DNA of 55,836 bases from contig JANQNO010000006.1 in assembly GCA_028279555.1 (NCBI GenBank), positions 1 to 55,836 of the forward strand. The letters run 5' to 3'. Below, piece by piece: positions 9,436 to 55,704 of the stretch (positions are counted from its first letter, which is position 1; each line of letters opens with the position of its first letter). The stretch is from Sphingorhabdus sp. GTDB lineage: Bacteria; Pseudomonadota; Alphaproteobacteria; Sphingomonadales; Sphingomonadaceae. A model generated the notes under the pieces. That model saw nothing but the letters and a program-made list of their open reading frames with translations. It did no database searches and was not told where the DNA came from. The position numbers and the translations under genes were made by a program.

Positions 9436-12426
9436 ATGAGCGACGAGAAAGACTATAAGGACACGGTCTTCCTGCCGAAGACCGATTTTCCCATGAAGGC
9501 CGGCCTTGCAAACAAGGAACCGGGCATTCTCGCGCGCTGGCAGGAAATGGGGCTTTACGAGCGGCTGCGCGAAGAGCGGAAGGGCCGCGAGAAATTCATC
9601 CTGCATGATGGCCCGCCCTATGCCAATGGCAATATCCATATCGGCCATGCGCTCAACAAGACGTTGAAGGATCTTGTCGTGCGCTCGCAGAGCCTGCTCG
9701 GCAAGGATGCGCCCTATGTGCCGGGGTGGGATTGCCACGGGCTACCGATCGAATGGAAGATCGAGGAGCAATACCGGAAGAAGAAGAAAAACAAAGACGA
9801 AGTACGCCCCAGCGAATTTCGCGCCGAATGCCGCGAATATGCCGATAAATGGGTGAAGGTGCAGAGCGAGGAATTTCAACGGCTCGGCGTGCTTGGCCGC
9901 TGGGACAAGCCCTATCTGACCATGGCCTACGACGCCGAGGCAACGATTGTCGAGGAACTGCTGAAATTCGCCGAGAATGGCCAGCTTTATCGCGGCGCAA
10001 AGCCGGTGATGTGGAGCCCCGTCGAACGCACCGCACTCGCCGAGGCCGAGGTCGAATATGAGGATATCGTCTCGCCGCAGATCGATGTGGCGTTTGAGAT
10101 CACCGAAGCGCCCAATGCGCCGGAGCTGGTCGACGCGCATGCAGTCATCTGGACAACAACGCCCTGGACGATTCCGGTCAACCAGGCATTGGCTTACGGA
10201 GCGGATGTCGAGTACCAATTGGTAATTTACGAAACTTCAGAAACCACTCCAATCCGATACCTAGTTGCAAAAGAACTCGCCTTGGAATTTGCTGAGCGGT
10301 CGGGACTAATGAACTTGGGAGAAGATGCTCCAATTGTTAGGTTCTCGGGATCCTTCAAAGGCTCTCAACTCGCAGGTGCCATCGCCAAACATCCGATGGC
10401 CGGAAAACTTCGTCACCCCCGCGGCGGCGGGTGTCCAGCTTCGGACGGTGAGGTGCTGGATTCCCGTTTTCGCGGGAATGACGAGGACTGGGATCGCGCG
10501 GTGGAATTTTACGAACGGCCCCGCCCCTTTCTCGATGGCTCTTCCTTCGTCACCACAGAGGCAGGCACGGGCCTTGTCCATATGGCACCCGACCATGGCG
10601 AGGATGACTTCGATCTCTGCAAGGCCAACGGCATCAATCCGGTCTTCGCGGTCGATGCAGGCGGGCAATATCGCGAAGACTGGCCCTGGCTGCCGCAGAC
10701 CGGCAGCGTCATCAACAAGAAATTCGTCGCCAGCGACGGGCCGATCTGCAACGATTTGCGCGAAGCAGGCGCGCTGCTGTCTGCCAGCGATGATTTCGCG
10801 CACAGCTATCCGCATAGCTGGCGGTCCAAGGCCAAGGTCATCTATCGCTGCACGCCGCAATGGTTCGTACCGATGGACAGCGATCTGACCCATCTGCCAG
10901 CCAAGCATCTGCATGAAAAAAGCTGGGAAGATGAGGGCGGCGCGGTCGATATGAATGACGAGACGCTGTGCGCCTCGCCCAGCCTGCGCGAGGTAGCGCT
11001 GTCCGAAATCGACGCCACCCGCTTCGTGCCGGAGCGCGGCCATCGCCGCCTGCAATCGATGGTCGAGGGGCGGCCAGACTGGGTGCTTTCGCGGCAAAGA
11101 GCGTGGGGCGTGCCGATCACGCTCTATGTGGACCGCAAGTCGGGCGACTATCTGATCGACGAAGAGGTCAATGCGCGCATCATTGCAGCCTTTAAAGAAG
11201 GCGGCGCGGATGCCTGGTTCGATGCCGATCATCAGGCATTGCTCGGCGACAAATATGATCTTGCCGACTATGAGGTGGTGACCGATATTCTCGACGTCTG
11301 GTTCGACAGCGGCTCGACGCATAGCTTCGTCCTGGAATCGGATGCATGGCCAGAACTCGATTCGCCCGCCGATCTTTATCTGGAAGGCAGCGACCAGCAT
11401 CGCGGCTGGTTCCAGTCGAGCCTGCTGGAATCCTGCGGCACGCGCGGCCGCGCGCCATACAGGGCGCTCCTGACCCACGGCATGACGCTCGATCGTGATG
11501 GCAAAAAAATGTCGAAGTCGCTGGGCAACACGCTCGATCCGCAAAAGATCATCAATGTGAATGGCGCGGACATATTGCGGCTCTGGGCGGCAAGCGTCGA
11601 TTTCACCGAGGATCACCGGATTGGCGATGAAATCCTGAAGGGCGTGACCGACAGCTACCGGAAATTGCGCAATACCTTCCGCTATATGCTCGGTGCGCTC
11701 GGCGACTTTGATGAAGGCGAACGCGTCAATGTCGCCGATATGCCGGAACTGGAGCGCTATATCCTCCACCGCCTTGCTGCGGTGGACGCGGAGCTCAAAA
11801 AGCATGTGAATAATTTCGCCTTCGGGCCCTATGTGCGCGTGCTCACGCAGTTTGCGCAGGAGGATCTATCCGCCTTCTTCTTCGATATCCGCAAGGATTG
11901 CCTTTATTGCGATGTGAACCCCGAAACCGGCGCGCAGTCGGACAAGCGCCGGGCCTATCGCAGCGTGCTCGACATCCTTTTCCACGCGCTCACGCGTTAC
12001 ATTGCGCCGGTGCTGGTCTTTACGGCGGAGGAAATCTGGCAGTCGCGCTTCCCAGACGAGAATGACAGCATTCACCTCAAAGAATGGCCGGACGTTGATT
12101 TGCGCTGGCAGGATGCGGAACTGGCCGAAAAATGGGTCGCGATCCGCCAAGCGCGTACCAGTGTCACCGAAGCCATCGAGCCGCTTCGCCGTGAAAAAAC
12201 CATCCGTTCCAGTCTGGAAGCGAAAATCAGCTATCCCATTGCCGGCCTGCCGATTGACGAGGATGAGTTTACCGAACTGACCATAGTGGCGTCTGTGACG
12301 GATGGTCCGGAAGTCACCGTCACCAAAACCTCCCACCATAAATGCGGGCGTTGCTGGCGCTTCCTTCCCGAAGTAAAGTCGGATGGCGCGCTGTGCGACA
12401 GGTGCCATTCAGTTTTGCAAGGGTAA
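9436..12426 (+). CDS. ileS: Isoleucyl-tRNA synthetase carrying an in-frame palindromic insertion
   Basis: This class I synthetase charges tRNA-Ile. The HIGH motif is at residues 68-71 and KMSKS at 691-695. A C-terminal zinc finger (CGRC near 970, CDRC near 987) marks the bacterial zinc-containing type. I chose the ATG at 9436 (MSDEKDYKDT); the TTG at 9397 adds 13 non-conserved residues. In the CP1 editing domain a palindromic repeat (10411-10483) is read in frame, inserting about 24 extra residues before the FYERPRPFL segment. The 180 bp just upstream are visibly richer in A/T than the rest of the gene. No frameshift is present, so the enzyme should be full-length. Confidence 0.95.
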   Translation: MSDEKDYKDTVFLPKTDFPMKAGLANKEPGILARWQEMGLYERLREERKGREKFILHDGPPYANGNIHIGHALNKTLKDLVVRSQSLLGKDAPYVPGWDCHGLPIEWKIEEQYRKKKKNKDEVRPSEFRAECREYADKWVKVQSEEFQRLGVLGRWDKPYLTMAYDAEATIVEELLKFAENGQLYRGAKPVMWSPVERTALAEAEVEYEDIVSPQIDVAFEITEAPNAPELVDAHAVIWTTTPWTIPVNQALAYGADVEYQLVIYETSETTPIRYLVAKELALEFAERSGLMNLGEDAPIVRFSGSFKGSQLAGAIAKHPMAGKLRHPRGGGCPASDGEVLDSRFRGNDEDWDRAVEFYERPRPFLDGSSFVTTEAGTGLVHMAPDHGEDDFDLCKANGINPVFAVDAGGQYREDWPWLPQTGSVINKKFVASDGPICNDLREAGALLSASDDFAHSYPHSWRSKAKVIYRCTPQWFVPMDSDLTHLPAKHLHEKSWEDEGGAVDMNDETLCASPSLREVALSEIDATRFVPERGHRRLQSMVEGRPDWVLSRQRAWGVPITLYVDRKSGDYLIDEEVNARIIAAFKEGGADAWFDADHQALLGDKYDLADYEVVTDILDVWFDSGSTHSFVLESDAWPELDSPADLYLEGSDQHRGWFQSSLLESCGTRGRAPYRALLTHGMTLDRDGKKMSKSLGNTLDPQKIINVNGADILRLWAASVDFTEDHRIGDEILKGVTDSYRKLRNTFRYMLGALGDFDEGERVNVADMPELERYILHRLAAVDAELKKHVNNFAFGPYVRVLTQFAQEDLSAFFFDIRKDCLYCDVNPETGAQSDKRRAYRSVLDILFHALTRYIAPVLVFTAEEIWQSRFPDENDSIHLKEWPDVDLRWQDAELAEKWVAIRQARTSVTEAIEPLRREKTIRSSLEAKISYPIAGLPIDEDEFTELTIVASVTDGPEVTVTKTSHHKCGRCWRFLPEVKSDGALCDRCHSVLQG
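10411..10483. repeat. Palindromic element inside ileS
   Basis: Two 29-bp arms (10411-10439 and 10455-10483) are inverted copies that match at 21 of 29 positions; each arm is itself a small hairpin (CCCGC...GCGGG type). The same element occurs at 46828-46901 in non-coding DNA, where the right arm is almost identical (GATTCCCG, then TTTCGCGGGAATGACG). Here it lies within the ileS reading frame and is translated (residues about 326-350) without a stop. Confidence 0.85.
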
Positions 12427-12437
12427 GGGCAGTTCCG

Positions 12438-12989
12438 ATGCAATCAGAGAGACGCTTCCATATTCAGGGCATGCTGCTCGCTGCGCTGATTTTCATCGCC
12501 GATCAGGCGGTGAAATATGTCATGGTCGTCCCGCTGCAGCTTGAGAGCCGCAGCAAAATCCACATCATGCCCTTTTTCGACCTGACCTGGGCCAAGAATT
12601 ATGGTGTCTCGATGGGCATGCTGACCGCCGACAATGACACGCAGCGCTGGCTGCTTGTCGGCTTTACCGCGCTGATTGCGGTGATCGTGGCGGTATGGAT
12701 GTTCCGAGAAAAGCTGCGCGGCGATGTGCTTGCGCTCGCGATGGTCCTGGGCGGCGCGCTCGGCAACATTACGGATCGCGCGCGGCTCGGCTATGTGGTC
12801 GACTATGCCGATCTGCATTTTGGCGACTTCCGGCCCTTTTTCATATTCAACCTTGCCGATGCCTGCATCACCATCGGCGTGCTGATATTGCTTGCGCGCG
12901 CCTTCCTGATGCGCGAAAAGGACGCGGATAATCCCGCAAACGAGACAAATGACTCTGCGGACAATAATTTGGAGACTGAGAATGCGTAA
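12438..12989 (+). CDS. lspA: Lipoprotein signal peptidase (signal peptidase II)
   Basis: LspA cleaves signal peptides from prolipoproteins in the inner membrane. Four transmembrane helices are visible in 183 residues. The catalytic aspartates lie in GNITDR and VVDYADL near residues 113-126, the usual LspA motifs. The ATG at 12438, 11 bp after ileS, gives the expected short cytoplasmic N-terminus followed by the first helix. The C-terminus is acidic and Asn-rich. Its last 8 bp overlap the next gene, which encodes a lipoprotein that LspA itself would process. Confidence 0.94.
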   Translation: MQSERRFHIQGMLLAALIFIADQAVKYVMVVPLQLESRSKIHIMPFFDLTWAKNYGVSMGMLTADNDTQRWLLVGFTALIAVIVAVWMFREKLRGDVLALAMVLGGALGNITDRARLGYVVDYADLHFGDFRPFFIFNLADACITIGVLILLARAFLMREKDADNPANETNDSADNNLETENA

Positions 12990-13395
12990 GACATTGGCAC
13001 TTACCGGTGCTTTGGGAGCGCTGACATTGCTTTCGGCTTGTGGTTCTAGCGGGATTTTCGACCGCGAGCGGCCCGATGAATTTGCCGTGAGCCGGGCCGC
13101 GCCGCTGGCGGTTCCGCCCGATTTTGCGCTTGTTCCGCCGCAACCCGGTGCTGCGCCGACACAGGGTGGCAGCAATCAGGAAGAAGTGCTCGAGGCGCTA
13201 TTTGGCGGCCCGGCGCCGCGCTCCGCAGCCGAAAGCGCGATTATCGGCGCGGCCGGCGATGCCGAGCTGGGCATCCGCACCGCCGTGGGAGACCCGGAAA
13301 CCAAGACATTGAACAAGGGCAGCGTCACCCGCGACATCATCGCCGCACCCGAAGGTGACGGGCAGAATGCCCAGGCGGCGATACCTGGAGCTTGA
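12982..13395 (+). CDS. DUF3035/BamF-like outer-membrane assembly lipoprotein
   Basis: The product has 137 residues, with a lipoprotein signal ending in the lipobox LSAC (Cys20). The rest is Pro/Ala-rich, with an FAVSRAAPLAVPPDFAL segment typical of DUF3035, a family described as the BamF subunit of the alphaproteobacterial outer-membrane protein assembly machine. The ATG at 12982 overlaps the lspA end by 8 bp, so the gene is probably co-translated with lspA. Assignment rests on the motif and position; the BAM role is inferred from the family. Confidence 0.78.
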   Translation: MRKTLALTGALGALTLLSACGSSGIFDRERPDEFAVSRAAPLAVPPDFALVPPQPGAAPTQGGSNQEEVLEALFGGPAPRSAAESAIIGAAGDAELGIRTAVGDPETKTLNKGSVTRDIIAAPEGDGQNAQAAIPGA

Positions 13396-13407
13396 AGCTA
13401 GAAGTTC

Positions 13408-13887
13408 TTAGTTATTCCACCATTGCTGGGTTTTCGTAGACAATTGAAACTTAATTATCCGCGGATCACTCTCATACTTTGAGAGCCATTTACCTGTCAT
13501 TTTCCAACCCGCGACACGCTTCCTTTGGGGATGTAACTCTTGCAACACCTGCGAATGTAGCAGAAATACTCTGATCAAATTACGTTCATCAACAACGATA
13601 CCAAAATATGGTTCGCAACCAAAAGATTCACATGCGAAATTCAATTTGGAAAAATTGTCGTTGGGTATGTTGAGATATTGACCTTCCGTCCCCGGATTTC
13701 TGGAACGTGACTTGACCGAGATACCGATAGGTTTTTGATTTAGTTCCAAACGTGCAATAAGATCCATTCCAACATGATCTACGCGGGCGCACTCAACTCC
13801 GTGCTTTGAAAGCCAATATAGAATTAGATATTCTGCAAAATCGCCGGTTATCTTAGAATGGCGAGAGCTTTTTGAAATTTTTGGCAT
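13408..13887 (-). CDS. Low-GC PD-(D/E)XK-nuclease-like protein
   Basis: The 159-residue product shows a pattern resembling PD-(D/E)XK nucleases or Holliday-junction-resolvase-like folds: GDFAEY with Glu19, then GMDLIARL with Asp42, then GISVKSR with Lys59. The usual acidic or Gln residue two before the lysine is Ser57, so catalysis is uncertain. Base composition is clearly more A/T-rich than dxs or lspA, and codons such as TTA, AAT and CAA are common, suggesting transfer. Its ATG directly abuts the dxs stop (13885-13887 against 13888-13890), so it can be translated from the dxs message. Confidence 0.65.
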   Translation of the reverse strand: MPKISKSSRHSKITGDFAEYLILYWLSKHGVECARVDHVGMDLIARLELNQKPIGISVKSRSRNPGTEGQYLNIPNDNFSKLNFACESFGCEPYFGIVVDERNLIRVFLLHSQVLQELHPQRKRVAGWKMTGKWLSKYESDPRIIKFQLSTKTQQWWNN

Positions 13888-15819
13888 TTATGCCCGCGCG
13901 CTGGCCTCTTCCACGCTCGTGCTGTTGTGACGCAGCGCCTTGAGCACGGTATCGACAATGTGCGGCGCGTCCAGACCAGCTTCCTCATACTGCTTTTCCG
14001 GCTTGTCCTGATCCTGAAACTGGTCAGGCAGCCGCATGGTGCGGATTTTAAGGCCCGCATCCGTCAGGCCCAGATCGCTGGCCAGCGTCAGCAGATGCGC
14101 GCCAAGCCCGCCTATGGCGGCCTCTTCGATCGTTACGACAACGTCATGCGAAGCGGCGAGCTTGCGGATCAGCGCTTCATCAAGCGGCTTGGCAAATCGC
14201 ATATCCGCCACCGTCGTACTGAGGCCCTTGGCATCCAACTGGTCGGCGGCCTTTTTCGCTTCCTCGAGCCGCGCGCCGAGTGACAGGATCGCCACCTTCT
14301 TGCCTTCACGTATGATCCGTCCCTTGCCGATCTCCAGTTTCTCGGGAACTTCAGGTAGCGGAACGCCGACACCGCCTCCTCGCGGATAGCGAAAGGCAAT
14401 CGGCCCGTCGTCATATTCGGCAGCCGTATAGGTCATGTGAACCAGTTCGGCCTCGTCAGCCGCAGCCATCACCACCATATTGGGCAGCGTCGCCAGATAG
14501 GTGACGTCGAAGCTGCCCGCATGCGTCGAGCCATCCGCGCCGACAAGGCCTGCACGGTCGATGGCAAAACGCACAGGCAGATTCTGGATGGCGACATCAT
14601 GCACCACCTGATCGTAGGCGCGCTGCAGAAAGGTCGAATAGATCGCCGCAAAGGGCCGCATGCCCTGCGCGGCAAGGCCGGCCGCAAAGGTTACACCGTG
14701 CTGCTCGGCAATCCCGACATCGAAGGCCTTGTCAGGGTGTGCCTTGGCGAATTTGTCGACGCCCGTACCCGACGGCATGGCAGCCGTGATCGCAACGATC
14801 CGGTCGTCCTTTTCCGCCAGCTTGGCGAGCGTTTCGCCAAATACATTCTGATAGGCAGGCGGCCCGCCGCCGGGCCCCTTGTCCTGCTTGCCGGAGACCA
14901 CATCGAATTTGGCGACGCCGTGATATTTATCCGCGCTCTCTTCGGCAGGCGTATAGCCCTTGCCTTTCTGCGTCACACAATGGACCAGTACCGGGCCTTC
15001 TGCATTGTCGCGGACATTTTCCAGTACGGGAATGAGTTGGCCGAAATTATGCCCGTCGATGGGGCCGACATAATAGAAGCCCAGCTCCTCAAACAGCGTG
15101 CCGCCCATCGCCATGCCGCGCGCATACTCCTCCGCCTTGGCCGTGGCGTTATGCATGCGCCGTGAAAGCTTTGCCGTTACTTTCGAGGCAAATTTGCGGA
15201 TGCCCAGATATTCCGAAGACGATACCAGCCGCGCAAGATAGCCGGAAAGCCCGCCGACCGGCGGCGCAATCGACATGTCATTGTCGTTGAGGATGACAAC
15301 CAGCCGGTTGCCTGCTTCCTGCGCATTGTTCATCGCCTCATAGGCCATGCCCGCGCTCATCGCACCGTCGCCGATCACTGCAATCGCCTTGCCAGCCTGG
15401 CCCGAAAGCTTGTTGGCAACTGCAAAGCCCAAAGCTGCGCTGATCGAGGTGGAGCTGTGTGCAGCGCCGAAAGGATCATATTCGCTTTCGCTGCGCTTGG
15501 TGAAGCCTGACAGGCCGCCGCCCTGCCTGAGCGTGCGAATACGGTCGCGCCGCCCCGTCAGTATCTTGTGCGGATAGCATTGATGCCCGACATCCCAGAC
15601 CAGGCGGTCGTCTGGCGTATTGAAGACATAGTGGATCGCGGTTGCCAGCTCGACCACCCCCAACCCGGCACCCAGATGCCCTCCAGTCACCGAAACTGCG
15701 CTGATCACTTCGGCGCGCAGCTCATCGGCAAGTTGGCGAAGATCGCCTTCTTTCAGTTTTCGTAGATCGGAAGGGAAATTCACCTTGTCGAGCAAGGGTG
15801 TATCGGGCTTTTCGCTCAT
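13888..15819 (-). CDS. dxs: 1-deoxy-D-xylulose-5-phosphate synthase
   Basis: DXS condenses pyruvate and glyceraldehyde-3-phosphate, the first step of the MEP isoprenoid pathway, using thiamine diphosphate. The 643-residue protein shows [14 protein letters not shown] near the N-terminus, the ThDP motif [16 protein letters not shown], and the transketolase-type C-terminus with [16 protein letters not shown] chose the ATG at 15819 ([10 protein letters not shown]), preceded by GCGGGGA on the minus strand; a longer frame reaches 15891 but its extension is not conserved. It diverges from the carboxylase gene with only 35 bp between starts. Confidence 0.96.
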
Positions 15820-15854
15820 ATTCCCCGCTTTAGCGCCAAAAATCCGGCCTGTCG

Positions 15855-17432
15855 ATGAATAGCGGCAATTCTGACATGACGAATCTGCCAACTGACGCTA
15901 GCCTTGCCGCCATGACATGGGAAAAAGAGATCGAGGAATTGAAAGCCCGCCAGAAGATGGCGGAGAAGATGGGCGGGGAGGAGAAGGTCGCGCGGCAACA
16001 TGCACGCGGCAAGCTCAATGCACGCGAACGCATCACACGGCTGGTCGACGAAGGTTCGTTTCGGGAAATCGGCAAGATTGCCGGCCGGGGCGAATATGGC
16101 GAAAAGGGCGGGCTGGAGAGTTTTTCCGCCAGCAATCTGATATTTGGCCGCGCCGACATAGATGCCCGTCCGGTCGTTGCGAGTGCCGACGACTTTACGG
16201 TGCGCGGCGGAGCCGCCGACGCTGCGCTGCACCGCAAATTCATGCAATGCGAGAAAATGGCGCATGAGCTCAGGATTCCCATGATCCGTATGATCGACGG
16301 TACGGGCGGCGGCGGCAGCGTCAAAAGCCTCGAAAAAATGGGCCATACCTACGTACCGGCGGTCCCGGGATGGGACGATGTAATCGACAATCTGCGAACC
16401 GTACCCGTGGTCGCGCTCGCGCTGGGCCCGACTGCCGGAATGGGTGCCGCTCGCACGGTCGCCAGCCATTATTCAGTCATGGTGCGCGGGCTGTCGCAAA
16501 TTTTTGCGGCCGGCCCTGCGGTTACGGCTGCCATTGGTGAAGACATCGACAAGGAGGGATTGGGCGGCAGCGACATTCACACCCGCAATGGCGTTGTCGA
16601 CGAGGAAGTTGCAAGCGAGGATGAGGCCTTTGCGGCTGCCAGGCGATTCCTGTCCTATCTACCCTCGTCTGTCGAAGGGATGGCCGAAAGGACGGCATGC
16701 AGCGATCCGGCAGACAGGCGCGAGGGGAAGCTCATCTCCACTGTCCCGAAAGACCCAAAGCAGGTCTATTCCATGCGCAGCGTGATCGAAGCCGTGTTCG
16801 ACCGCGGGAGCATCTTCGAGATGGGCCGCCGCTGGGGCCAGGCCGCGATCACGGCCTTTGCCCGGCTTGATGGCTGGCCGGTCGCTGTGCTGGCCAGCGA
16901 CCCGAGCTTTCTGGGCGGCTCCTGGGAAGCGCTGACATCGCAGAAAGTGAAGCGATTCGTTGGACTTGCCGAGCAATTTCATCTTCCTGTGGTTCATTTG
17001 GTCGACAATCCCGGTTTCATGATCGGTGTAGAGGCGGAGAAAAGCGGAACGATCCGCTATGGCGTAGAGGCCATGAATGCGGTTTATGGCGCGACTGTCC
17101 CCTGGGCCAGCGTGATCATCCGGCGGGCCTATGGCATTGCCGGCAGCGCGATGAGCAATGCCGAAAAATTCCAGTATCGCTTTGCCTGGCCGTCGGGCGA
17201 CTGGGGCAGCCTGCCGATCGCAGGCGGGCTGGAAGTGGCCTATAAATCGGAGCTTGAGGCATCCGACAATCCGGAAGCCAAGCTGGAAGAAATAAAGGCG
17301 CGGCTCGATGCAGTGACATCGCCATTCCGGACTGCCGAAAATTATGGCGTCGAGGATATTATCGATCCACGCGATACGCGGCCGCTGCTCTGCGAGTTTG
17401 CCGATCTGGCTTGGCGGAAACGGGGCACCTGA
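15855..17432 (+). CDS. Acyl-CoA carboxylase carboxyltransferase subunit (propionyl-CoA carboxylase beta-like)
   Basis: The 525-residue protein has the two crotonase-like halves of biotin-dependent carboxyltransferases. The N-terminal half carries [12 protein letters not shown] near residues 140-151 and [16 protein letters not shown] near 193-208. The C-terminal half carries [15 protein letters not shown] near 386-400 and the GIAGSAM loop. It would transfer CO2 from carboxybiotin to an acyl-CoA. No biotin carboxylase subunit lies in the window, so the alpha subunit must be elsewhere. The start could also be the ATG at 15876 or 15912; the first ATG is given. Confidence 0.88.
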
Positions 17433-17603
17433 ATCCTCCGGCATAAGCGGACTCCGGCGAATGGATCCCCGAGCACCGTCACATCTGATTTACCAGAGAT
17501 TGCAACTGGATTCAGAGTTGGTTCAGATGCTTTCCTGCAATTAGTCGACAGAAAACAACGCTTGGTCGCTGAAATAACGATGCGAATGAATAGGAGAAGA
17601 CTG

Positions 17604-17843: not shown

Positions 17844-17868
17844 TCTTGTTGCCAAACTGGATTCGGCT

Positions 17869-46563: not shown

Positions 46564-46958
46564 CGACCGATGCGCCGACGATCCGCGTCACGCCGATCTT
46601 CGGATTTTGATGGGCGAAAGCCAAAGCCGAGGCATCGCAGGAATGCATGTAGGAAATAATATTCCAAAGGTTAGGAAAGTGAGGGTCAGACAAGACCGCA
46701 AACTGCGCCGCGCGCCTGATACAGGCGAAATGAGATTATGAAGCGGCCCGCAAGGCGGAGGCCCGCGAATGTCAAAGAGCTTGCGGGCGGCATAACATTG
46801 GTGGAGGGCTGTAGGACATGATTATTTCGTCACTCCCGCGCAGGCGGGAGTCCAGCCCAATCTGACGCTGTCACTGGATTCCCGCTTTCGCGGGAATGAC
46901 GTTGAAAACAATAGCGTTGGAGACAACGAAGCAAAGCAGGTAACGCTCGCCCAAACTC
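46564..46958. other. 395-bp non-coding region with repeats
   Basis: Between the convergent b561 and pyk genes lie a 9-bp inverted repeat (GCCCGCAAG at 46746-46754, CTTGCGGGC at 46780-46788) and the palindromic element at 46828-46901. A short plus-strand frame (46544-46741) shows no recognisable product. I see no gene. Confidence 0.6.
46828..46901. repeat. Palindromic element, same family as the one in ileS
   Basis: Two 29-bp arms (46828-46856 and 46873-46901) are inverted copies around a 16-nt spacer. The right arm reads GATTCCCGC, then TTTCGCGGGAATGACG, which nearly matches the right arm of the ileS copy at 10455-10483. It lies in non-coding DNA downstream of pyk. Confidence 0.9.
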
Positions 46959-48422: not shown

Positions 48423-48517
48423 TCCCCCTTCCCCAACAGGAAGCGCTTTATTTTCCGCCTCTTTAAGCGCAAAGCATGACAAGTTGAAAACAATTATTGA
48501 TACCGGAGAGAGACGAC

Positions 48518-48826
48518 ATGCCCGCCGAAATTTCAGATGCCGCCGCTGCTGCCGCTTTCCGCCGCCTGGTCGCGCATCTGCGCCACCGCCATGACGCACA
48601 GAATATCGATCTGATGGGGCTGTCGGGTTTTTGCCGCAACTGCCTGGCCGACTGGGTCATGGAAGCCACCAACGAAGCAGGCGGCGATATGACCAAAGAG
48701 GAAGCGCGCGAGGCGATCCACGGCATGCCGATGGCGGAGTGGAAGGCAAAATTCCAGACGCCCGCCAGCGACGAGCAGCTTGCGAAAATGAAAGAAAGCG
48801 TGGCGAAGAACAGGCCGCGAGGTTAG
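48518..48826 (+). CDS. DUF1244 family protein
   Basis: The 102-residue product matches the DUF1244 family by RLVAHLRHRHDAQNIDLMGL and SGFCRNCLADWVMEA, with two cysteines (CRNC) and several histidines that could bind a metal. GGAGAGAGA precedes the ATG. The gene lies between pyk and a GapR-like gene, an order common in sphingomonads. No biochemical role is established for the family. Confidence 0.85.
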   Translation: MPAEISDAAAAAAFRRLVAHLRHRHDAQNIDLMGLSGFCRNCLADWVMEATNEAGGDMTKEEAREAIHGMPMAEWKAKFQTPASDEQLAKMKESVAKNRPRG

Positions 48827-48884
48827 GACATCGGCAACCTGATTCGAGGCAACCGCCTCACCATCATTCAGACAGGAGACCATA

Positions 48885-49124
48885 ATGTCCGAAGGCAGCA
48901 TCGCCGCCGATCAACTGCGCCTTTTCATCGAGCGTATTGAAAGACTGGAAGAGGAGAAAAAGGGCATCGCCGATGATATCCGCGATGTCTATTCAGAGGC
49001 CAAATCGCAGGGCTATGATACCAAGATAATGCGGCAGATCGTGCGCCTCAGAAAAATGGAAACGCATGACCGGCAGGAAATGGAAGCGGTCCTGGAAACC
49101 TATAAGGCGGCGCTTGGGCTTTAG
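48885..49124 (+). CDS. GapR-like nucleoid-associated protein (DUF2312/UPF0335)
   Basis: The 79-residue helical protein fits the GapR family, whose Caulobacter member binds AT-rich, overtwisted DNA ahead of replication forks and stimulates topoisomerases. Conserved segments are [20 protein letters not shown] at residues 11-30, then [15 protein letters not shown] and [12 protein letters not shown] near 47-58. Its DNA-clamping role here is inferred from the family. A GACAGGAGA sequence stands before the ATG. Confidence 0.9.
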
Positions 49125-49148
49125 TCAGCATTCACCTGGAGGAACAAC

Positions 49149-49466
49149 ATGATTGTCACCACTACCCCGACCATCGAAGGCAAGCCGGTGCGCGAATATG
49201 TCGGCATCGTCACGGGCGAGGTTATCGTCGGTGCCAATATTTTCCGCGATATCTTTGCCTCGATCACCGATATCGTCGGCGGGCGCAGCGGCAAATATGA
49301 GAAAGTCCTCACCCGCGCCCGCGAAGAAGCCGTCTATGAAATGCAGGCCAGGGCCGCGCAGCAGGGCGGCAATGCCGTGGTCGGCATCGATATCGACTAT
49401 GAAGTGCTGGGCAAGGCGGGATCGATGCTGATGGTCTCGGCCACCGGAACGGCGGTCGTGATTTGA
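49149..49466 (+). CDS. UPF0145 (YbjQ-like) protein
   Basis: The 105-residue protein has the YbjQ/UPF0145 pattern: [20 protein letters not shown] at the N-terminus, then [20 protein letters not shown] and [11 protein letters not shown], with an ending [14 protein letters not shown]. Members form pentamers and are sometimes labelled heavy-metal-binding, but the function is not settled. The stop overlaps the TTG of the next gene (TTGA at 49463-49466). Confidence 0.9.
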
Positions 49467-49948
49467 ATATTCGCCCGGCGACGGAGGCGGATGCCAAAGC
49501 CTGCCGCGGCATCTATGCGCCTTTCGTCGCCGAAAGCTGGGTCAGTTTTGAAGAAGAGATTCCATCGGCATCCGAAATGATGCGGCGGATAGCGGCAAGC
49601 GGCGAATCCCATGCTTGGCTGGTCGCCGATCTCGGCGGCGAAATAGCAGGCTATGCCTATGGGTCACTGCACCGGTCACGCGGCGCATATAACAGCAGCT
49701 GTGACGTGGCGGTCTATGTCGATCCGGACCATCAGCGAGGCGGCATTGGCTTGGCGCTATACGAAGCCTTGCTACCTGTGCTCAAGGATCGCGGATTTCA
49801 TGCGGCCTTTGCGGGGATCGCCCTGCCCAACGAGGCCAGCGTGGCTCTCCACCAAAAGGCCGGTTTCACATCGATCGGTATCTACCGCGAGGTGGGATGG
49901 AAACTAGGCGGCTGGCGCGATGTAGAATGGTGGCAGCGGTTGCTTTGA
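49463..49948 (+). CDS. GNAT acetyltransferase of the phosphinothricin N-acetyltransferase (Pat/MnaT) type
   Basis: This 161-residue GNAT enzyme would acetylate an amino group using acetyl-CoA. N-terminal [20 protein letters not shown] and [19 protein letters not shown], then the acetyl-CoA loop [15 protein letters not shown] near residues 93-107, and ending [15 protein letters not shown], match phosphinothricin/methionine-sulfoximine acetyltransferases. Start is TTG, coupled to the previous gene by TTGA; no ATG exists before the conserved core. Confidence 0.9.
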
Positions 49949-50005
49949 AACGCAAAGCTGATGTAAGGCCTGCCGCGATCCAGCAACAGACAATAAAGGG
50001 CTGAA

Positions 50006-50749
50006 ATGGCAGGCCACAGTAAATTTGCGAATATCAAACATCGCAAGGGCGCGCAGGACAAGAAGCGCTCCAACCTCTTTTCCAAACTCTCCCGCGAAAT
50101 CACCGTCGCGGCCAAGATGGGCATGCCCGACCCGGACATGAATCCGCGTCTCCGGCTCGCGGTCAACAATGCGCGCGCGCAATCGATGCCGAAGGACAAT
50201 ATCCAGCGTGCGATCAACAAGGCATCGGCAGGCGATGCGGAGAATTACGAAGAGGTCATGTATGAAGGCTATGGCCCCGGCGGCACGGCGATTATCGTCG
50301 AAACGCTGACCGACAATCGCAACCGCACCGCCACCGCTGTGCGCACCGCATTTTCGAAGAATGGCGGCAATCTGGGCACGTCGGGCAGCGTCGTGCATGG
50401 CTTCGATCATGTCGGCCTGATCACCTATCCAGCGAGTGCGGGCGATGCCGATACCGTGTTCGAAGCCGCGCTGGAAGCAGGCGCGGAAGATGTCCAGTCG
50501 GGTGACGAAGTCCACGAGATCTGGACCGGGATGGATGATCTGCATGAAGTTGCCAAATCACTGGAAGGCGCGCTCGGCGAAGCGGAGAATGTGAAGCTCG
50601 CCTGGAAACCCAATCTGGACGTCACCGTCGATGAAAAGACCGCAGGCACGCTGCTCAAGCTGATCGACGCGCTCGAGGAAGATGACGATGTGCAGACCGT
50701 CTGGGGCAATTATGATGTGCCCGACGAGGTGGCGGAGAAGCTGGGTTGA
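50006..50749 (+). CDS. yebC: YebC/PmpR family protein
   Basis: The 247-residue protein has [20 protein letters not shown] at the N-terminus, the YebC hallmark, and [20 protein letters not shown] in the middle. YebC proteins act on transcription (PmpR) or on translation of proline-rich stretches. As in many proteobacteria it stands just upstream of ruvC. Its stop is shared with a TTG of a tiny ORF (TTGA at 50746-50749). Confidence 0.94.
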
Positions 50750-50853
50750 AGACCACCCTTTTGATTTTGTTGCTTAGTCTCCTTGCAATGATTGGCCTTC
50801 TATATCTGATGTTCATCAATGGAATGTTCATGCACGGAGATCCGGGTCCGTGA
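50746..50853 (+). CDS. Tiny membrane protein between yebC and ruvC
   Basis: A TTG overlapping the yebC stop (TTGA) opens a 35-codon frame: start [15 protein letters not shown], then a single long hydrophobic stretch to about residue 24, then a short polar tail ending GDPGP, stop TGA at 50851-50853. It ends 10 bp before ruvC. The pattern of Lys-2 followed by a single membrane helix fits a small membrane protein. The same TTGA coupling occurs at 49463. Expression is untested. Confidence 0.5.
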
Positions 50854-50863
50854 CATTCAAGGA

Positions 50864-51331
50864 ATGATCATTCTGGGCCTCGATCCCGGCCTTGCCTCGA
50901 CCGGTTGGGGTGTCATCCGCAGCGAGGGCAGCAGGCTCTCCCATATCGCCAACGGCCAGATAAAGACCGACGCGAAAATGCCGCTCGCCTCACGGCTCTT
51001 GCAGCTTGATCTGGAACTGTCCGATGTGGTGCGCGAACACACGCCGGATGCGGTCGCGGTCGAGGAGGTTTTCGTCAACAAGAACCCGCAAAGCACCCTG
51101 AAATTGGGACAGGCGCGCGGCGTCTGCCTGCTGGGCGCATCGCGCGGCGGAGCCGAGGTGCACGAATATGCGGCAAGGCTGGTCAAGAAGGCCGTGGTCG
51201 GCGTTGGCAAGGCGGAAAAGGAACAGGTGCAGGCGATGCTCGGCGTGCTGCTGCCCGGTGTAAAGCTTGCCGGCCATGACGCAGCCGATGCACTGGCGGT
51301 TGCGATCTGCCATGCGAATATGGATGGTTAG
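50864..51331 (+). CDS. ruvC: Holliday junction endonuclease RuvC
   Basis: RuvC cuts Holliday junctions at the end of recombination. The first catalytic Asp is in [14 protein letters not shown] (Asp7), followed by [22 protein letters not shown] with the glutamate pair, and the C-terminal [13 protein letters not shown] with the last Asp pair. I chose the ATG at 50864 (MIILGLDPG) with AAGGA directly before it; the frame is open to 50819 but its extension overlaps the tiny ORF. Confidence 0.95.
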
Positions 51332-51352
51332 TTTGGTTCGGCATTTCCGGGA

Positions 51353-51556
51353 ATGTCGCCTGAACGAATATGTAACTGTATGCTTTCCAGCGAAAGCTGG
51401 AATCCAGTCGGCAACACAGAAAATCTGGACCCCAGCTTGCGCTGGGGATCACACTTGAAGCCACTCCCCATCCGTTCGTGTCGAGCGCAGCCGGCAAGCG
51501 ACCACGCAATCGTGTCTCGACTTCGCTTGGCACCAACGGCTATAGATTTCACATGA
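51353..51556 (+). other. Open leader frame crossing the repeat and ending ATGA on ruvA
   Basis: A 67-codon frame from ATG 51353 crosses the repeat at 51383-51453 and ends in TGA at 51554-51556, overlapping the ruvA ATG as ATGA. It is in the same frame as ruvC beyond the ruvC stop. It encodes nothing recognisable, but it could carry ribosomes to ruvA. A chance open frame of this length in GC-rich DNA is quite possible. Confidence 0.35.
51383..51453. repeat. Palindromic element between ruvC and ruvA
   Basis: Left part CTTTCCAGCGAAAGCTGGAA and right part GACCCCAGCTTGCGCTGGGG are each hairpins and are roughly inverted copies around a CAGTCGGCAACACAGAAAAT spacer. The overall design (two hairpin arms ending in CCAG/CTGG) is that of the elements at 10411 and 46828, with a different stem. 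Confidence 0.75.
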
Positions 51557-52161
51557 TCGCGAAACTGACGGGGCGGATTGACGAAACCGGGATCGACCAT
51601 CTGGTCATCGATGTGCAGGGTGTCGGCTATCTGGTGCAGGCGAGCGCGCGGACGCTGGGCGTACTCGGCGGCACGGGCGATATTGTCAGCGTCTATACCG
51701 AAATGCAGGTGAGCGAGAATGACATGCGGCTCATCGGTTTTGCGAGCGCCGAGGAGCGCGACTGGTTCCGGCTGCTGATCTCGGTCCAGGGCGTGGGCGG
51801 CAAGGTCGCGCTGGCGATTTTGAGCGCGCTCGAGGCGGACGATCTGACGCTCGCCATCGGCAGCGAGGATAGCGCGATGGTCGCGCGGGCCAATGGCGTG
51901 GGACCAAAACTCGCCAGCCGGATTGTCAACGAGCTGAAGGACAAGGTCGGCGCGCTTGCAGGGGTCGGTGGCGGCGCGAAGCTGGCTGCGGCTGGCGGCA
52001 AAGGCGGCGGGCATTCGGCAGATGCTGTCGCGGCGCTCACCGGCCTGGGCTTCAAACCCGGCGAAGCGAACAGCGCGGTATCGGCAGCCCTCGACGAAAT
52101 CGGCAAGGAAGCGAGTCTCGATGCGCTTGTGCGGGTGGCGCTTAAGAAGGCGGGCAAGTGA
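51553..52161 (+). CDS. ruvA: Holliday junction branch-migration protein RuvA
   Basis: RuvA forms the tetramer that holds Holliday junctions and loads RuvB. N-terminal [20 protein letters not shown], the helix-hairpin-helix segments [13 protein letters not shown] and [17 protein letters not shown] near 73-130, and a C-terminal domain with [12 protein letters not shown] match the family. It starts at ATG 51553. Its stop overlaps the GTG of the following membrane-protein gene (GTGA at 52158-52161). Confidence 0.95.
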
Positions 52162-52649
52162 CAGAGTCGGAGATCGAAACGAAACCAGAGCCTGAACTGG
52201 TAAAGCACGCTGCTCAATATTATTTGGCCAATGCACAAGAAATGAAGTCCCACTTAATTGTAGAGCATGCAGCCTCTTTCAGGTGGTTGTTGGCATCTCT
52301 GCTGGCAATAAACGGAGGTGCCGCAATTGCAGTTCTATCCTCCGACAAACTTCCAAGTGGTGCCAAGATATGGGCTGGAGGCTTCTTTACAGTTGGTATT
52401 TTTGCAGCTTTGTTGCTTGCGTACTTTAGCCAGAAATCATTGAAAAAAACGCTTCAGCCAATTGGCGAAATTGCCGAACATTGGGTCGGCGCAAGTTACT
52501 CAGGCGAGTTGGATACTGAAAATTTGCAGAAGGCTGATGACGAAATAAAGAAGGCTCTAACTGTAGGTAGATTAACAGAAATTCCCGGATGGATATCGGC
52601 GATTTGTTTTGGAATAGGCGTGATCCAAGTTGGGAGGGCACTAACATGA
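52158..52649 (+). CDS. Low-GC membrane protein inserted between ruvA and ruvB
   Basis: The 163-residue product has a soluble N-terminus (about 40 residues), three probable transmembrane helices ([52 protein letters not shown]) and a polar stretch between the second and third. Base composition is clearly more A/T-rich than ruvA and ruvB, implying acquisition. Start is GTG overlapping ruvA, and the stop is an ATGA at 52646-52649 that overlaps a second, now orphan, ruvB-like start. No known family recognised. Confidence 0.7.
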
Positions 52650-52681
52650 CCGGCAACCGCCATCTTTCACCCGAGCGCAAC
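52646..52681 (+). pseudogene. Orphan copy of the ruvB 5' end
   Basis: From the ATGA junction, 12 codons read [12 protein letters not shown]. The present ruvB begins [12 protein letters not shown] (53179 onward): 8 of 12 residues and 26 of 36 bases agree. The orphan sits exactly where ruvB would start if it directly followed the membrane gene, and MTxxxxLSPER is the usual ruvB start in related bacteria. It looks like the former or duplicated start of ruvB, cut off by the insertion that follows. Confidence 0.65.
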
Positions 52682-52690
52682 GTCCCTTAC

Positions 52691-52721
52691 CGTCACCCTG
52701 AACTTGTTTCAGGGTCCATCC
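52691..52721 (-). repeat. 31-bp palindromic repeat, copy 1 (inverted)
   Basis: Read on the minus strand the repeat is GGATGGACCCTGAAA followed by CAAGTTCAGGGTGACG. It has an internal CTGAA/TTCAG dyad. It forms an inverted pair with copy 2 at 52751-52781. Confidence 0.85.
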
Positions 52722-52750
52722 CACTGCATCAACCGGCGGTATGGTGTTCT

Positions 52751-52781
52751 GGATGGATGCTGAAACCAGTTCAGCATGACG
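52751..52781 (+). repeat. 31-bp palindromic repeat, copy 2
   Basis: The sequence is GGATGGATGCTGAAA followed by CCAGTTCAGCATGACG. It matches copy 3 at 53129-53159 in all but two adjacent bases and is in the same orientation. Copies 2 and 3 thus flank the GIY-YIG gene as direct repeats. Confidence 0.88.
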
Positions 52782-52795
52782 AACATGCGAATCCT

Positions 52796-53110
52796 TCAAT
52801 CCTTCAGCGGTTCAAGGCCCAGCCCAACTGCGAGATCGGCCCAATGCGGGTTCTTTTCCTCGATCAGGTTTATTTTCCATTGCCGATGCCAGTTTTTAAG
52901 CTGTTTCTCGCGGGCAATCGCGCCCTCCATGTCGCCAAACAGTTCATAGTGAACAAGCCTGTATGTTTTGTATCGGGAAGCAAAGCCTGGCGTCAGGCCG
53001 TTTCTGTGCTGATAAAGCCTTTTCGGCAAATCAGACGTGACGCCGATGTAAAGCGTGCCATATCGCTTGCTCGCCAGAATATAGACGCAGGGTTGCTTTT
53101 CCTCTCTCAT
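52796..53110 (-). CDS. GIY-YIG single-domain endonuclease
   Basis: The 104-residue product is a minimal GIY-YIG domain: YIL at residues 10-12 and YIG at 21-23, a catalytic Arg31 in KRLYQHR, and Glu68 in AIAREKQLKNW. Such UvrC-N-terminal-like nucleases cut DNA using one metal. The frame is open to 53155, but those extra 15 codons come from the repeat; the ATG at 53110 (MREEKQPCVY) opens the domain. It lies antisense to the operon between ruvB's orphan start and ruvB, flanked by three repeats. This suggests a mobile or repeat-associated nuclease. Confidence 0.88.
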   Translation of the reverse strand: MREEKQPCVYILASKRYGTLYIGVTSDLPKRLYQHRNGLTPGFASRYKTYRLVHYELFGDMEGAIAREKQLKNWHRQWKINLIEEKNPHWADLAVGLGLEPLKD

Positions 53111-53128
53111 GTTGGGAGCATAATGGCG

Positions 53129-53159
53129 GGATGGATGCTGAAAAAAGTTCAGCATGACG
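53129..53159 (+). repeat. 31-bp palindromic repeat, copy 3
   Basis: The sequence is GGATGGATGCTGAAA followed by AAAGTTCAGCATGACG, identical to copy 2 except AA for CC in the centre. It lies 20 bp before the ruvB start and just upstream of the GIY-YIG gene. Confidence 0.88.
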
Positions 53160-53178
53160 GTTTAGGGGTAACAACAGC

Positions 53179-54207
53179 TTGACCGATAACCCCCACCTCA
53201 CCCCCGAACGCAAGAGCGAGGACGCCGATGCCGCGCTGCGGCCCAAGACGCTCGCCGAATTCATCGGCCAGCAGGCTGCGCGGGAGAATCTGCGCGTCTT
53301 TATCGAGGCCGCAAAGGCTCGCAAGGAGGCGATGGACCATGTGCTCTTCTTCGGCCCGCCGGGGCTGGGCAAGACAACGCTGGCGCAGATCGTCGCGCGC
53401 GAGATGGGCGTCGGCTTTCGCGCCACGTCGGGACCGGTGATTGCCAAATCGGGCGATCTCGCTGCACTGCTCACCAATCTGGAGGAGGGCGATGTCCTCT
53501 TCATCGACGAGATTCACCGGCTCAATCCGATTGTAGAGGAGGTGCTCTATCCGGCGATGGAGGACCGCGCGCTTGACATCATGATCGGCGAGGGGCCGTC
53601 GGCGCGCAGCGTGCGCATCGATCTTCCCGCCTTCACACTGGTAGGCGCAACGACGCGGCAGGGGCTGCTGACCACGCCCCTGCGTGACCGCTTCGGCATT
53701 CCGGTGCGTTTGAATTTCTACAGCCATGATGAGCTCGAAGAGGTCGTGACGCGGGCCGCCAGACTGCTCGATCTGGATATCGCGCTGGATGGTGCACAGG
53801 AGGTGGCCAAACGCTCGCGTGGAACACCGCGTGTAGCTGGAAGGCTGCTGCGGCGGGTGCGCGATTTTGCCAATGTCGCCGGGGACGCAAAGGTCACCGC
53901 AAAGATCGCCGACGAGGCGCTCACCAAGCTGGAGATTGACACGCTCGGCCTCGATGCGATGGACCGGCGCTATCTGACGATGATCGCGGATATCTACAAG
54001 GGCGGACCTGTGGGCGTCGAAACGCTCGCTGCCGGGCTATCCGAGCCGCGCGACACGATCGAGGAAGTGATCGAGCCCTATCTGATCCAGCTCGGCCTGA
54101 TCGCCCGCACCGCGCGGGGCCGCGCGCTCAATGATCGCGGCTGGAAGCATCTCGGCCTCAATCCGCCTGCTGGCAGCAGCGGTCAGGACGGGCTGTTTGA
54201 CGAATAG
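53179..54207 (+). CDS. ruvB: Holliday junction branch-migration ATPase RuvB
   Basis: RuvB is the hexameric motor of branch migration. The 342-residue protein has [18 protein letters not shown], Walker [10 protein letters not shown] near residues 59-67, Walker B FIDEIHR near 108-114, sensor region [18 protein letters not shown] and a winged helix with [12 protein letters not shown]. It starts with TTG at 53179; no ATG precedes the conserved LTPER segment after the insertion. An orphan copy of this N-terminus lies 533 bp upstream. The weaker start and distance from ruvA may lower its expression. Confidence 0.96.
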
Positions 54208-54231
54208 ATTGCGGAAAATGGACCGTTAGTG

Positions 54232-54283
54232 CTGAGCCTGTCGAAGCACGCCTAACCGGACAAGCGCCCTTCGACAGGCTCAG
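54232..54283. repeat. Inverted repeat between ruvB and ybgC
   Basis: CTGAGCCTGTCGAAG (54232-54246) and CTTCGACAGGCTCAG (54269-54283) are perfect 15-bp inverted copies around a 22-nt loop. This CCTTCGACAGGCTCAGG-type sequence is a widespread intergenic repeat in sphingomonads and other proteobacteria. No coding frame crosses from it to the ybgC start. Confidence 0.9.
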
Positions 54284-54392
54284 GGCTCCGGTGTCCGGTG
54301 AGCCAAAGTGACTCGCATTTGCGACGAAGCGCAATCGCAGGGAAAATCTCCCTTCCCGCCTTATCCACAAGGCGCTAACGCTTTTTTCCACA

Positions 54393-54854
54393 ATGAGCGC
54401 TACCCAACCCTATCAGGGCCATTTCGACGGCAGGGATCATCTTTTTGCCCAGCGCGTCTATTTCGAGGACACCGATTTTTCCGGCGTTGTCTACCATGCC
54501 CGCTATCTGCATTTCATGGAGCGCGCTCGCTCCGACATGCTGGCGCGCGCCGGGATCGACCAGCGCGGCGCGCATGAGCAGGGGGCCGGCGCCTATGCTG
54601 TCACGCATATGGACATCGCCTTCAAGCGCGCGGCCAGATTCGACGATGCGCTGCTGGTGACCAGCCGGGTCACGGCCATTCGCGGCGCGAGCGTCGATAT
54701 TCAGCAGCGAGTCACAAGAGATGATGAAGTGATTATCGAGGCCCGGGTCACCGCGGCCTTTGTGAAGCCGAGCGGCATGCCGGGGCGGCAACCGAAAGCA
54801 TGGCGCGACGCCTTTCAGCGGGCTATGGATGGCGGCGCAGGAGAGAAAGAATAG
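54393..54854 (+). CDS. ybgC: YbgC-type acyl-CoA thioesterase of the tol-pal cluster
   Basis: The 153-residue hotdog thioesterase has FAQRVYFEDTDFSGVVYHARYL with the catalytic aspartate near residue 29, then FMERARSDMLARAGI. YbgC is regularly the first gene of the tol-pal operon, and tolQ starts 2 bp after its stop here. It likely acts on acyl-CoA or acyl-ACP in phospholipid metabolism. The ATG at 54393 is used because an in-frame stop lies further upstream. Confidence 0.94.
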   Translation: MSATQPYQGHFDGRDHLFAQRVYFEDTDFSGVVYHARYLHFMERARSDMLARAGIDQRGAHEQGAGAYAVTHMDIAFKRAARFDDALLVTSRVTAIRGASVDIQQRVTRDDEVIIEARVTAAFVKPSGMPGRQPKAWRDAFQRAMDGGAGEKE

Positions 54855-54856
54855 CA

Positions 54857-55558
54857 ATGGACATGTTTTTCCTCGCGGCAGCCGAAGGCGCTGCCAGCTT
54901 CAATCCCATGGACCTGTTTCTGCAGGCCGACTGGGTCGTAAAGGCCGTCATCATCGCATTGCTGCTCGCCAGTGTCTGGGTCTGGTTCATCATTGTCAGC
55001 TTCATGATCAAGATTTCCGGGATCAACAGCCGGAGCGAAAAATTCGAGCGCGAATTCTGGAGCAGCAGCGATATCGACGCATTCTACAAGGAACATGGCA
55101 AGCGCGACCTGCCGATCGCCAAAGTGTTTGCCGCTGGCGTATCGGAATGGCGGCGATCGACAAACGGCACCAGCATCGACCGCGAGGGCACGCGCGAGCG
55201 GCTCAACACGGCAATGGATGCAACGATTGCGGCAGAGAGCGACAAGCTTGCCAACCGGCTGAATTTCCTGGCCACAACCGGTTCCGTCGCGCCCTTTGTG
55301 GGCCTGTTCGGCACCGTCTGGGGCATCATGCGCAGCTTCGCTGCCATTGCCGCGGAGCAGAATTCATCGCTTGCCGTCGTTGCGCCCGGCATTGCCGAGG
55401 CTCTGTTTGCGACCGCCATCGGGCTGTTTGCAGCCATTCCGGCGGTGATTGCCTATAACCGCTTTTCGCACCGTATCGGGCAATATGAGGCGCGTATGGG
55501 CCGCTTTGCCGATGGCTTCCATGGCACGCTGAGCCGCGAATTGGAGCGCGAGGTATGA
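54857..55558 (+). CDS. tolQ: TolQ proton channel subunit
   Basis: TolQ and TolR use the proton motive force to energise the Tol-Pal envelope system during division. The 233-residue protein has three transmembrane helices: VKAVIIALLLASVWVWFII near residues 25-43, then ATTGSVAPFVGLFGTVWGIMR near 140-160 and GIAEALFATAIGLFAAIPAVIAY near 180-205. These are family signatures. The ATG at 54857 directly follows ybgC. The stop shares bases with an ATG (ATGA at 55555-55558) that once probably began tolR. Confidence 0.95.
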   Translation: MDMFFLAAAEGAASFNPMDLFLQADWVVKAVIIALLLASVWVWFIIVSFMIKISGINSRSEKFEREFWSSSDIDAFYKEHGKRDLPIAKVFAAGVSEWRRSTNGTSIDREGTRERLNTAMDATIAAESDKLANRLNFLATTGSVAPFVGLFGTVWGIMRSFAAIAAEQNSSLAVVAPGIAEALFATAIGLFAAIPAVIAYNRFSHRIGQYEARMGRFADGFHGTLSRELEREV

Positions 55559-55704
55559 TGGCGATAGCGATGAATAAGCCCCTCTCCTTTAGGGGAGGGG
55601 ATTGGGGTGGGGGTTTGCAGTTAGATGCGCCTTGCACCGATGCTCCTCTCCAAACGGATAGCCCCCCCTCCCAACCCTCCCCCCTGAAGGGTGGAGGGCT
55701 TTAG
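55555..55704 (+). other. Open leader frame through the tolQ-tolR repeat
   Basis: An ATG overlapping the tolQ stop (ATGA) opens a 49-codon frame that crosses the whole repeat and stops with TAG at 55702-55704, one base before the tolR ATG. Its first codons (MMAIAMNKPLS) resemble the present TolR start (MAMNLSSG), suggesting the ATGA was the former tolR start before the repeat entered. Confidence 0.5.
55579..55698. repeat. G/C-rich palindromic element between tolQ and tolR
   Basis: Arms of about 29 bp (55586-55614 and 55662-55690) are imperfect inverted copies, CCTTTAGGGGAGGGG on the left against CCTTCAGGGGGGAGG read on the opposite strand. Each end also forms a small hairpin (CCCCTCTCC-TTTA-GGGGAGGGG on the left). 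The right end supplies the GGAGGG that lies before the tolR ATG. Confidence 0.82.

Follow-up and report, generated by a model that had tools for sequence, protein, structure and literature searches.

Small GIY-YIG nuclease genes between inverted CGTC-type palindromes in a Sphingorhabdus genome and in other bacteria

The stretch of DNA analyzed here (the window) comprises 55,836 nt, the first 55.8 kb of contig JANQNO010000006.1 of a Sphingorhabdus sp. genome of 2.75 Mb (GenBank assembly GCA_028279555.1). An earlier reading of the window, made from the sequence alone (the first-pass annotation), had described palindromic insertions of several families at ileS, ruvC-ruvA, ruvA-ruvB, tolQ-tolR, and ybgC, one of them in frame within ileS; repeats were found at all five places, and both the diversity of families and the in-frame copy were borne out. 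The ruvA-ruvB insertion had been taken for a bare palindrome. An insertion is present there and spans 52691-53159, and it consists of a small antisense gene for a GIY-YIG nuclease with repetitive extragenic palindromes (REPs) at both ends. The gene is a 119-aa frame on the minus strand (52796-53155) that matched PF01541 over 52799-53110 with an E value of 2.2e-17; the Met used in the search lies at 53110, and the first 15 residues of the frame begin inside the REP.

REPs were scored using two covariance models, R1 and R2, which overlap in part and were trained on REPs found beside GIY-YIG genes; the R2 training set includes the sequence type of the window REP at 52691-52719. This REP (plus strand, loop CTTGT, 40.2 bits with R2) forms the distal end of the GIY-YIG cassette and has an inverted partner at 52753-52781 (minus strand, 32.7 bits with R2), and the proximal end is the REP at 53131-53159 (minus strand, 32.4 bits with R2). 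The repeat in ileS (9436-12426) is a CGTC-type dimer of the form CGTC..CCAG--CTGG..GACG at 10411-10483, lying in frame in the CP1 region, and its halves scored 27.6 bits (10411-10438, plus strand) and 37.4 bits (10456-10483, minus strand) with R1. The dimer in the ruvC-ruvA gap (51383-51453) is degenerate, with R1 scores of 22.2 and 20.9 bits. A near-perfect CGTC dimer at 46828-46901, absent from the first-pass annotation, is intergenic, lies outside open reading frames (ORFs) of at least 100 aa, and has the top score of the window (46.5 and 42.5 bits with R1). Judged by their sequence, REPs of the CGTC type are present at ileS, 46.8 kb, ruvC-ruvA, and ruvA-ruvB, the ruvC-ruvA copy scoring 21-22 bits and the others 27-46 bits with R1 or R2. 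Across the whole genome, R1 gave 39 matches among 39 candidates scored and R2 gave 26 among 37, a moderate to high copy number of the kind known for CGTC REPs.

CGTC REPs were defined by Di Nocera et al. in 2013 and, according to the accessible part of that paper, apparently have no dedicated transposase and include RPE-4/6 of Rickettsia and dRS3 of Neisseria (PMC3733652). The REPs described here are like them, as far as that text goes, in the CGTC/TGTC tag, the stem of 8-9 bp, the loop of 4-5 nt, and the CCA tail, and also in being mostly dimers, mainly alphaproteobacterial, and sometimes located in genes (PMC3733652). They are unlike the published ones, for which the same text gives no associated transposase gene (PMC3733652), in having a GIY-YIG gene with a REP on either side.

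The studied genome has eight GIY-YIG Pfam matches, six of them small genes and the other two in frames of 669 and 397 aa. All six small genes have flanking inverted palindromes, of several families, with inverted-repeat scores of 16-28 against a control maximum of 12. Further GIY-YIG loci were sampled from alphaproteobacteria (75 loci, L089 having been dropped as a duplicate of L003) and from GTDB contigs (80 loci), giving 155 in total, and Sphingomonadales loci were sorted by hand from record titles. With a score threshold of 13, inverted repeats were found at 48 of the 75 alphaproteobacterial loci and in none of 292 control windows from the same loci; for the GTDB contigs the counts were 62/80 loci and 5/293 controls, with 28 of 39 loci over the threshold outside Sphingomonadales. 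A hairpin search built on the CGTC REP anatomy given in the accessible part of the 2013 paper (PMC3733652) found CGTC hairpins in both flanks, tags outward, at 69/155 loci and in 3/592 control windows. These 69 clear elements measure 343-538 nt from tag to tag (median, 397). A covariation count was circular, only fully paired hairpins having been chosen, and was not used as evidence. Loci over the threshold carried titles of betaproteobacteria, Flavobacteriia, Planctomycetes, Nitrospirota, Cloacimonadota, and Patescibacteria-type bins, and single taxon labels need care because many of the loci are metagenome bins.

The REP-enclosed protein is, from its sequence, a GIY-YIG domain alone, of about 95-105 aa in the clade to which most of these genes were assigned (clade 1). 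In an alignment made with 49 of the 80 GTDB-contig loci, residues Y10, G23, R31, H35, E68, and N87 were invariant in 50 of 50 sequences, and Y10, G23, R31, E68, and N87 are positions that we take to be catalytic in GIY-YIG enzymes. The nearest solved relatives by profile search were UPF0213 proteins (1zg2 and 1ywl, with E values of 8e-6 and 9e-4), followed by weak matches to UvrC (E 0.009), the structure-specific nuclease SLX1 (E 0.03), and 1mk0, of the I-TevI homing endonuclease type (E 0.63). UPF0213, the N-terminal domain of UvrC, and SLX1 are thus relatives by profile, and to our knowledge none of them is part of a repeat-bounded element.

Each of three nuclease sets was found with a palindrome family of its own. 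In GIY-YIG clade 1 (154 of the 155 loci, L001 left out), CGTC palindromes stood in both flanks at 92/154 loci, against 4/291 controls. In GIY-YIG clade 2, which is L001-like (15 of 30 loci, L319-L333), the palindrome was CTGAG/CTTCGA, present in both flanks at 8 of 15 loci and in none of 29 controls. For genes of the nuclease family DUF559, taken from Sphingomonadales only (22 of 30 loci, after four cut at contig ends and four weak matches were left out), it was the CCCTCTCC palindrome, with both flanks occupied at 13/22 loci and 0/44 controls; this last link was a prior expectation that was then tested. By inverted-repeat score, 11/15 clade 2 loci and 18/22 DUF559 loci were positive (controls, 0/58 and 2/88). 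The palindrome of another family was found in both flanks at no locus of the three sets, and in one flank at 1/154, 1/15, and 2/22 loci for clade 1, clade 2, and DUF559, respectively. On the basis of this specificity, the two remaining repeats of the window look like the second and third kinds: the CTGAG/CTTCGA palindrome at ybgC (54232-54283) is of the kind that encloses clade 2 genes, and the CCCTCTCC/GGGAGAGGG-type repeat between tolQ and tolR, at the tolR start (55580-55701), corresponds to the kind enclosing nuclease genes of the DUF559 family. In relatives the tolQ-tolR site is empty, with a spacer of -1 to 4 nt (18 readable of 20 loci).

Most REP loops of clade 1 are of one of two classes, CTTGN or GNAN. 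Of the 155 loci, 47 had no usable outward hairpin and five were of mixed class; 85 of the 103 that were left had a nearest GIY-YIG relative under 75% identity. The loop class agreed with that of this relative at 80% of the 85 loci, against 49% expected (p 1e-4), and outside Sphingomonadales at 82% of 57 loci, against 52% expected (p 1e-4). Nucleases and REPs also occurred in the same genomes: using cutoffs of E ≤ 1e-25 for GIY-YIG clade 1 and at least five REPs by covariance model, 50 of 192 alphaproteobacterial genomes had both, 19 had REPs only, 7 had the nuclease only, and 116 had neither, giving an odds ratio of 44 that is somewhat overstated for the reasons given below.

Cassettes differ between relatives, being present in some and absent from others at the orthologous odhB-lpd and accD-folC sites. 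At odhB-lpd (30 loci of 41 matching genomes), a spacer of 380 nt with a whole cassette was found in the studied genome only; in 28 of the 29 other loci the spacer was 10-50 nt, and one held other cargo. The palindromes of this odhB-lpd cassette (L006/L259), seen among the 30 loci in the studied genome alone, carry a CAGT tag instead of CGTC. At accD-folC (30 loci of 37 matching genomes), four spacers were of 9 nt, two held a GIY-YIG cassette (the studied genome and L316, whose REP types differ), ten a REP dimer (loop, 5 nt), eight a fused hairpin, three half of a fused hairpin, and three a CCCTCTCC repeat. The fused hairpins, of the form TGTC..GACA (L299, L301, L302, L303, L305, L307, L315, and L317), share flanks with the L316 cassette and look like remains of its deletion, for which slippage between repeated stem halves would suffice. 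Between ruvA and ruvB, GIY-YIG relatives were found in 7 of 20 relatives.

The linkage of nucleases with REPs, their orientation and specificity, their co-occurrence, and their presence or absence at orthologous sites, all observed, lead us to propose, with a probability of about three in four, that the palindromes belong to minute mobile elements, as their ends or as their non-autonomous relatives, and that each such element encodes a single nuclease of one domain; we infer that this nuclease catalyzes the movement of the element. A complete element would consist of a REP with its CGTC tag outward, the GIY-YIG gene, and an inverted REP, and the gene-free REP dimers would be a small form comparable to REPINs (REP doublets forming hairpins). 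In single-stranded DNA or in a cruciform, the nuclease would recognize the REP hairpin by its tag, stem, and loop class and would cut at or near the tag; the unit between the two outward tags would then be freed, and it would be copied or transferred elsewhere, in many cases into the space separating two genes of an operon and sometimes, in frame, into a protein loop that tolerates it. Insertions that break the frame would be removed by selection, so that stop-free copies would remain inside genes. CGTC REPs may have their missing partner enzyme in the GIY-YIG nuclease. We also lean, with somewhat less assurance, towards a new class of mobile elements in which nucleases of at least three lineages (the two GIY-YIG clades and DUF559) each mobilize a palindrome family of their own.

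Several points weigh against the mobile-element proposal. Neither movement nor cleavage was observed. Inverted repeats at the threshold were lacking at 27 of the 75 alphaproteobacterial loci, and 18 of the 80 GTDB-contig loci fell below it, including 6 of 8 titled gammaproteobacteria; several loci share one genome and are not independent. Nineteen genomes with at least five REPs lack a strong GIY-YIG match and seven show the reverse, and the strength of co-occurrence is overstated somewhat because the models were trained on REPs beside GIY-YIG genes, partly from those 192 genomes, and because the REP counts are lower bounds. The CTTCGA and CCCTCTCC motifs were written after the inverted-repeat results for those sets had been seen. 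Loop-class agreement within Sphingomonadales was 83% of 29 loci against 70% expected (p 0.08), and REP sequence tracked GIY-YIG similarity weakly (Mantel r 0.09, p 0.053, for 35 of the 75 alphaproteobacterial loci). No clear target-site duplication was seen by eye at odhB-lpd or accD-folC, and the REP dimers, also by eye, are unlike simple internal deletions of cassettes. Single-sequence structure prediction gave a mean predicted local distance difference test score (pLDDT) of 46, which was unusable, and it was not used.

If host processes or another enzyme moved the REP dimers, the GIY-YIG and DUF559 genes would be trapped cargo. Gene-free REP dimers do exist, unrelated cargo occupies the ruvA-ruvB gap of relatives, and host slippage between direct repeats is compatible with the fused hairpins seen at accD-folC; random cargo would not, however, be expected to show a separate nuclease family for each palindrome family, with no foreign palindrome in both flanks, a loop class that follows GIY-YIG similarity, and strong co-occurrence, and we consider this explanation unlikely. 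That tyrosine transposases of the RAYT (REP-associated tyrosine transposase)/IS200 type mobilize CGTC REPs is very improbable. RAYTs have been proposed as mobilizers of GTAG REPs, as stated in the accessible part of the 2013 survey, which in that part also reports none flanked by CGTC REPs (PMC3733652). A weak association of Y1_Tnp with REPs was found (at least five REPs in 22/44 genomes with Y1 and in 47/148 others; odds ratio 2.1, p 0.03), but the studied genome gave no match to the Y1/RAYT transposase family (PF01797), and RAYT was rejected as the mobilizer there. Equally hard to credit is a functional role of the hairpins in terminating or insulating nuclease genes and operons, in which case selection, and not mobility, would have maintained them. 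REPs are palindromes, often intergenic, and thought to act in RNA, in the accessible text (PMC3733652), yet same-family inverted pairs around one gene type, the presence/absence between relatives, and the copy inside ileS argue against such a role.

The first-pass annotation had proposed a different system, in which long leader frames keep operon genes coupled across the insertions. The frames themselves exist on the plus strand: 201 nt ending as ATGA on the ruvA start (51353-51556; probably chance), 591 nt ending as TTGA on the ruvB start (52589-53182), and 132 nt ending one base before the tolR ATG (55570-55704). At ybgC, which had been named as a counter-example, there is indeed no coupled leader frame. 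The ATGA and TTGA overlaps are likewise real, and as signs of leader coupling they fail, since RuvA begins with Met-Ile and RuvB with Met-Thr and the overlaps are thereby written into the first codons of the downstream genes; in 5 of 20 relatives ruvA and ruvB overlap as GTGA or ATGA without an insert. Nor is ruvC-ruvA a tight coupled junction, as had been supposed, its spacers being 58-1120 nt in relatives (18 readable of 20 loci).

Leader frames were compared with 2000 dinucleotide shuffles of each spacer, in which coupled leaders crossing the repeat were counted. The fraction of shuffles with such a leader was 0.113 for ruvC-ruvA, 0.343 for the last ruvB repeat, and 0.015 for tolR; for the whole ruvB cassette it was 0/2000, a null that is unfair because the frame there is antisense to the GIY-YIG gene. 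From these results, composition alone would predict shorter leaders than those present at tolR and ruvB. Over 27 repeat-bearing spacers (26 of relatives and one of the studied genome, after those below 45 nt, repeat-free, or unreadable were dropped), 7 had a coupled leader across the nearest repeat, against 2.1 expected from the shuffles. The excess that the first-pass annotation would lead one to look for is therefore present overall, but not as a general rule: 5 of 9 ruvA-ruvB spacers had a coupled leader (495-666 nt, antisense to GIY-YIG genes, three of the loci being close relatives), and at accD-folC the count was 2/18 against 0.7 expected. The excess is local, at ruvA-ruvB and tolR, and coupling is not a general property of the repeats. 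The three crossing frames, two of them beyond shuffle expectation, speak for leader coupling; the overlaps due to the genes' own starts, the antisense ruvB leader, the low count at accD-folC, the absence at ybgC, and the loose ruvC-ruvA junction speak against it, and we hold it to be highly unlikely as an account of the insertions. The scattered palindromes are probably not a frame-keeping translation system.

The proposed mobile elements have counterparts among known systems. Like REPtrons, i.e., RAYT genes with their REPs and REPINs, they combine a palindrome pair around an enzyme gene with small non-autonomous pairs elsewhere, and the enzyme clade is specific to the repeat family; unlike REPtrons, which have a tyrosine transposase and a GTAG tag, they have a single-domain GIY-YIG or DUF559 nuclease and a CGTC tag. 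CGTC is the tag of the window REPs, and the GTAG tag by which REPtrons are recognized was not found among them. In GIY-YIG homing endonucleases of the I-TevI type, the nuclease domain is likewise linked with mobile DNA. The elements described here differ from these in having no intron or added DNA-binding domain, several unrelated target sites, and palindromic ends. They are like Rickettsia palindromic elements in placing an in-frame palindrome in a protein gene, and unlike them in that one in-gene copy (ileS) was verified by comparison and that, of 14 repeat places from the window and 400 kb of sampled genome sequence, 8 were in no ORF of at least 100 aa; ileS was the only one of the other six that was compared, and two further in-ORF repeats of that sample lay in ORFs of 289 and 609 aa.

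What is new here is the finding of small GIY-YIG nuclease genes between inverted, tag-outward CGTC REPs in several phyla. No literature link of GIY-YIG or DUF559 with palindromes was found among the matches listed, with subscription papers largely outside the scope of the search and a prior description possible. The accessible part of the 2013 paper left open which enzyme, if any, spreads CGTC REPs, which are widespread in alphaproteobacteria (PMC3733652). If the mobile-element proposal is true, an enzyme is supplied for these REPs, including RPE-4/6 and dRS3, and nuclease-only palindromic elements would be a general counterpart of the RAYT/REPIN system. With a specific partner enzyme that can be tested, and with two further palindrome families following suit, the puzzle would become a biochemical question, and in-frame repeat peptides in essential proteins such as IleS would also be explained.

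In IleS, the site after the HPM motif was compared in 30 loci of 61 genomes, one of which (L056) is from another family. In-frame repeats were found there in 6 of the 30 loci including the studied genome, CGTC-type in two (the studied genome and L041) and CCCTCTCC-type in four, and none was found in the other 24; repeat-like inserts were also seen at further IleS sites. REPs within genes, among them those for tRNA synthetases in E. litoralis and S. alaskensis, had already been described in 2013, as given in the accessible part of that paper (PMC3733652), and the ileS insertion is accordingly a new example and not a new kind. The stretch of the IleS editing domain before the insert (10190-10400) is hypervariable within the genus and looks AT-rich here.

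Other features were recorded at the insertions. Copies resembling former starts lie upstream of two of them, as the first-pass annotation had noted, and both are diverged: a copy of the ruvB 5′ end at 52646-52681 on the plus strand (26/36 bases identical by hand count) and a second one, resembling the tolR start, at 55558-55575. Either target duplication or recombination could have left these copies. Right after ruvA and beside the GIY-YIG gene lies an ORF of 163 aa (52158-52649), low in GC and membrane-like, for which Pfam and NCBIfam searches gave no match. The ruvA-ruvB gap holds other, differing sequences in relatives L069, L078, L083, L084, L086, L087, and L088, and with this ORF and such varied contents it looks like a hot spot for cargo. 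In genome G196 (C1:431165-522012), CGTC REPs are arrayed in tandem at regular intervals of 234, 171, and 336 nt.

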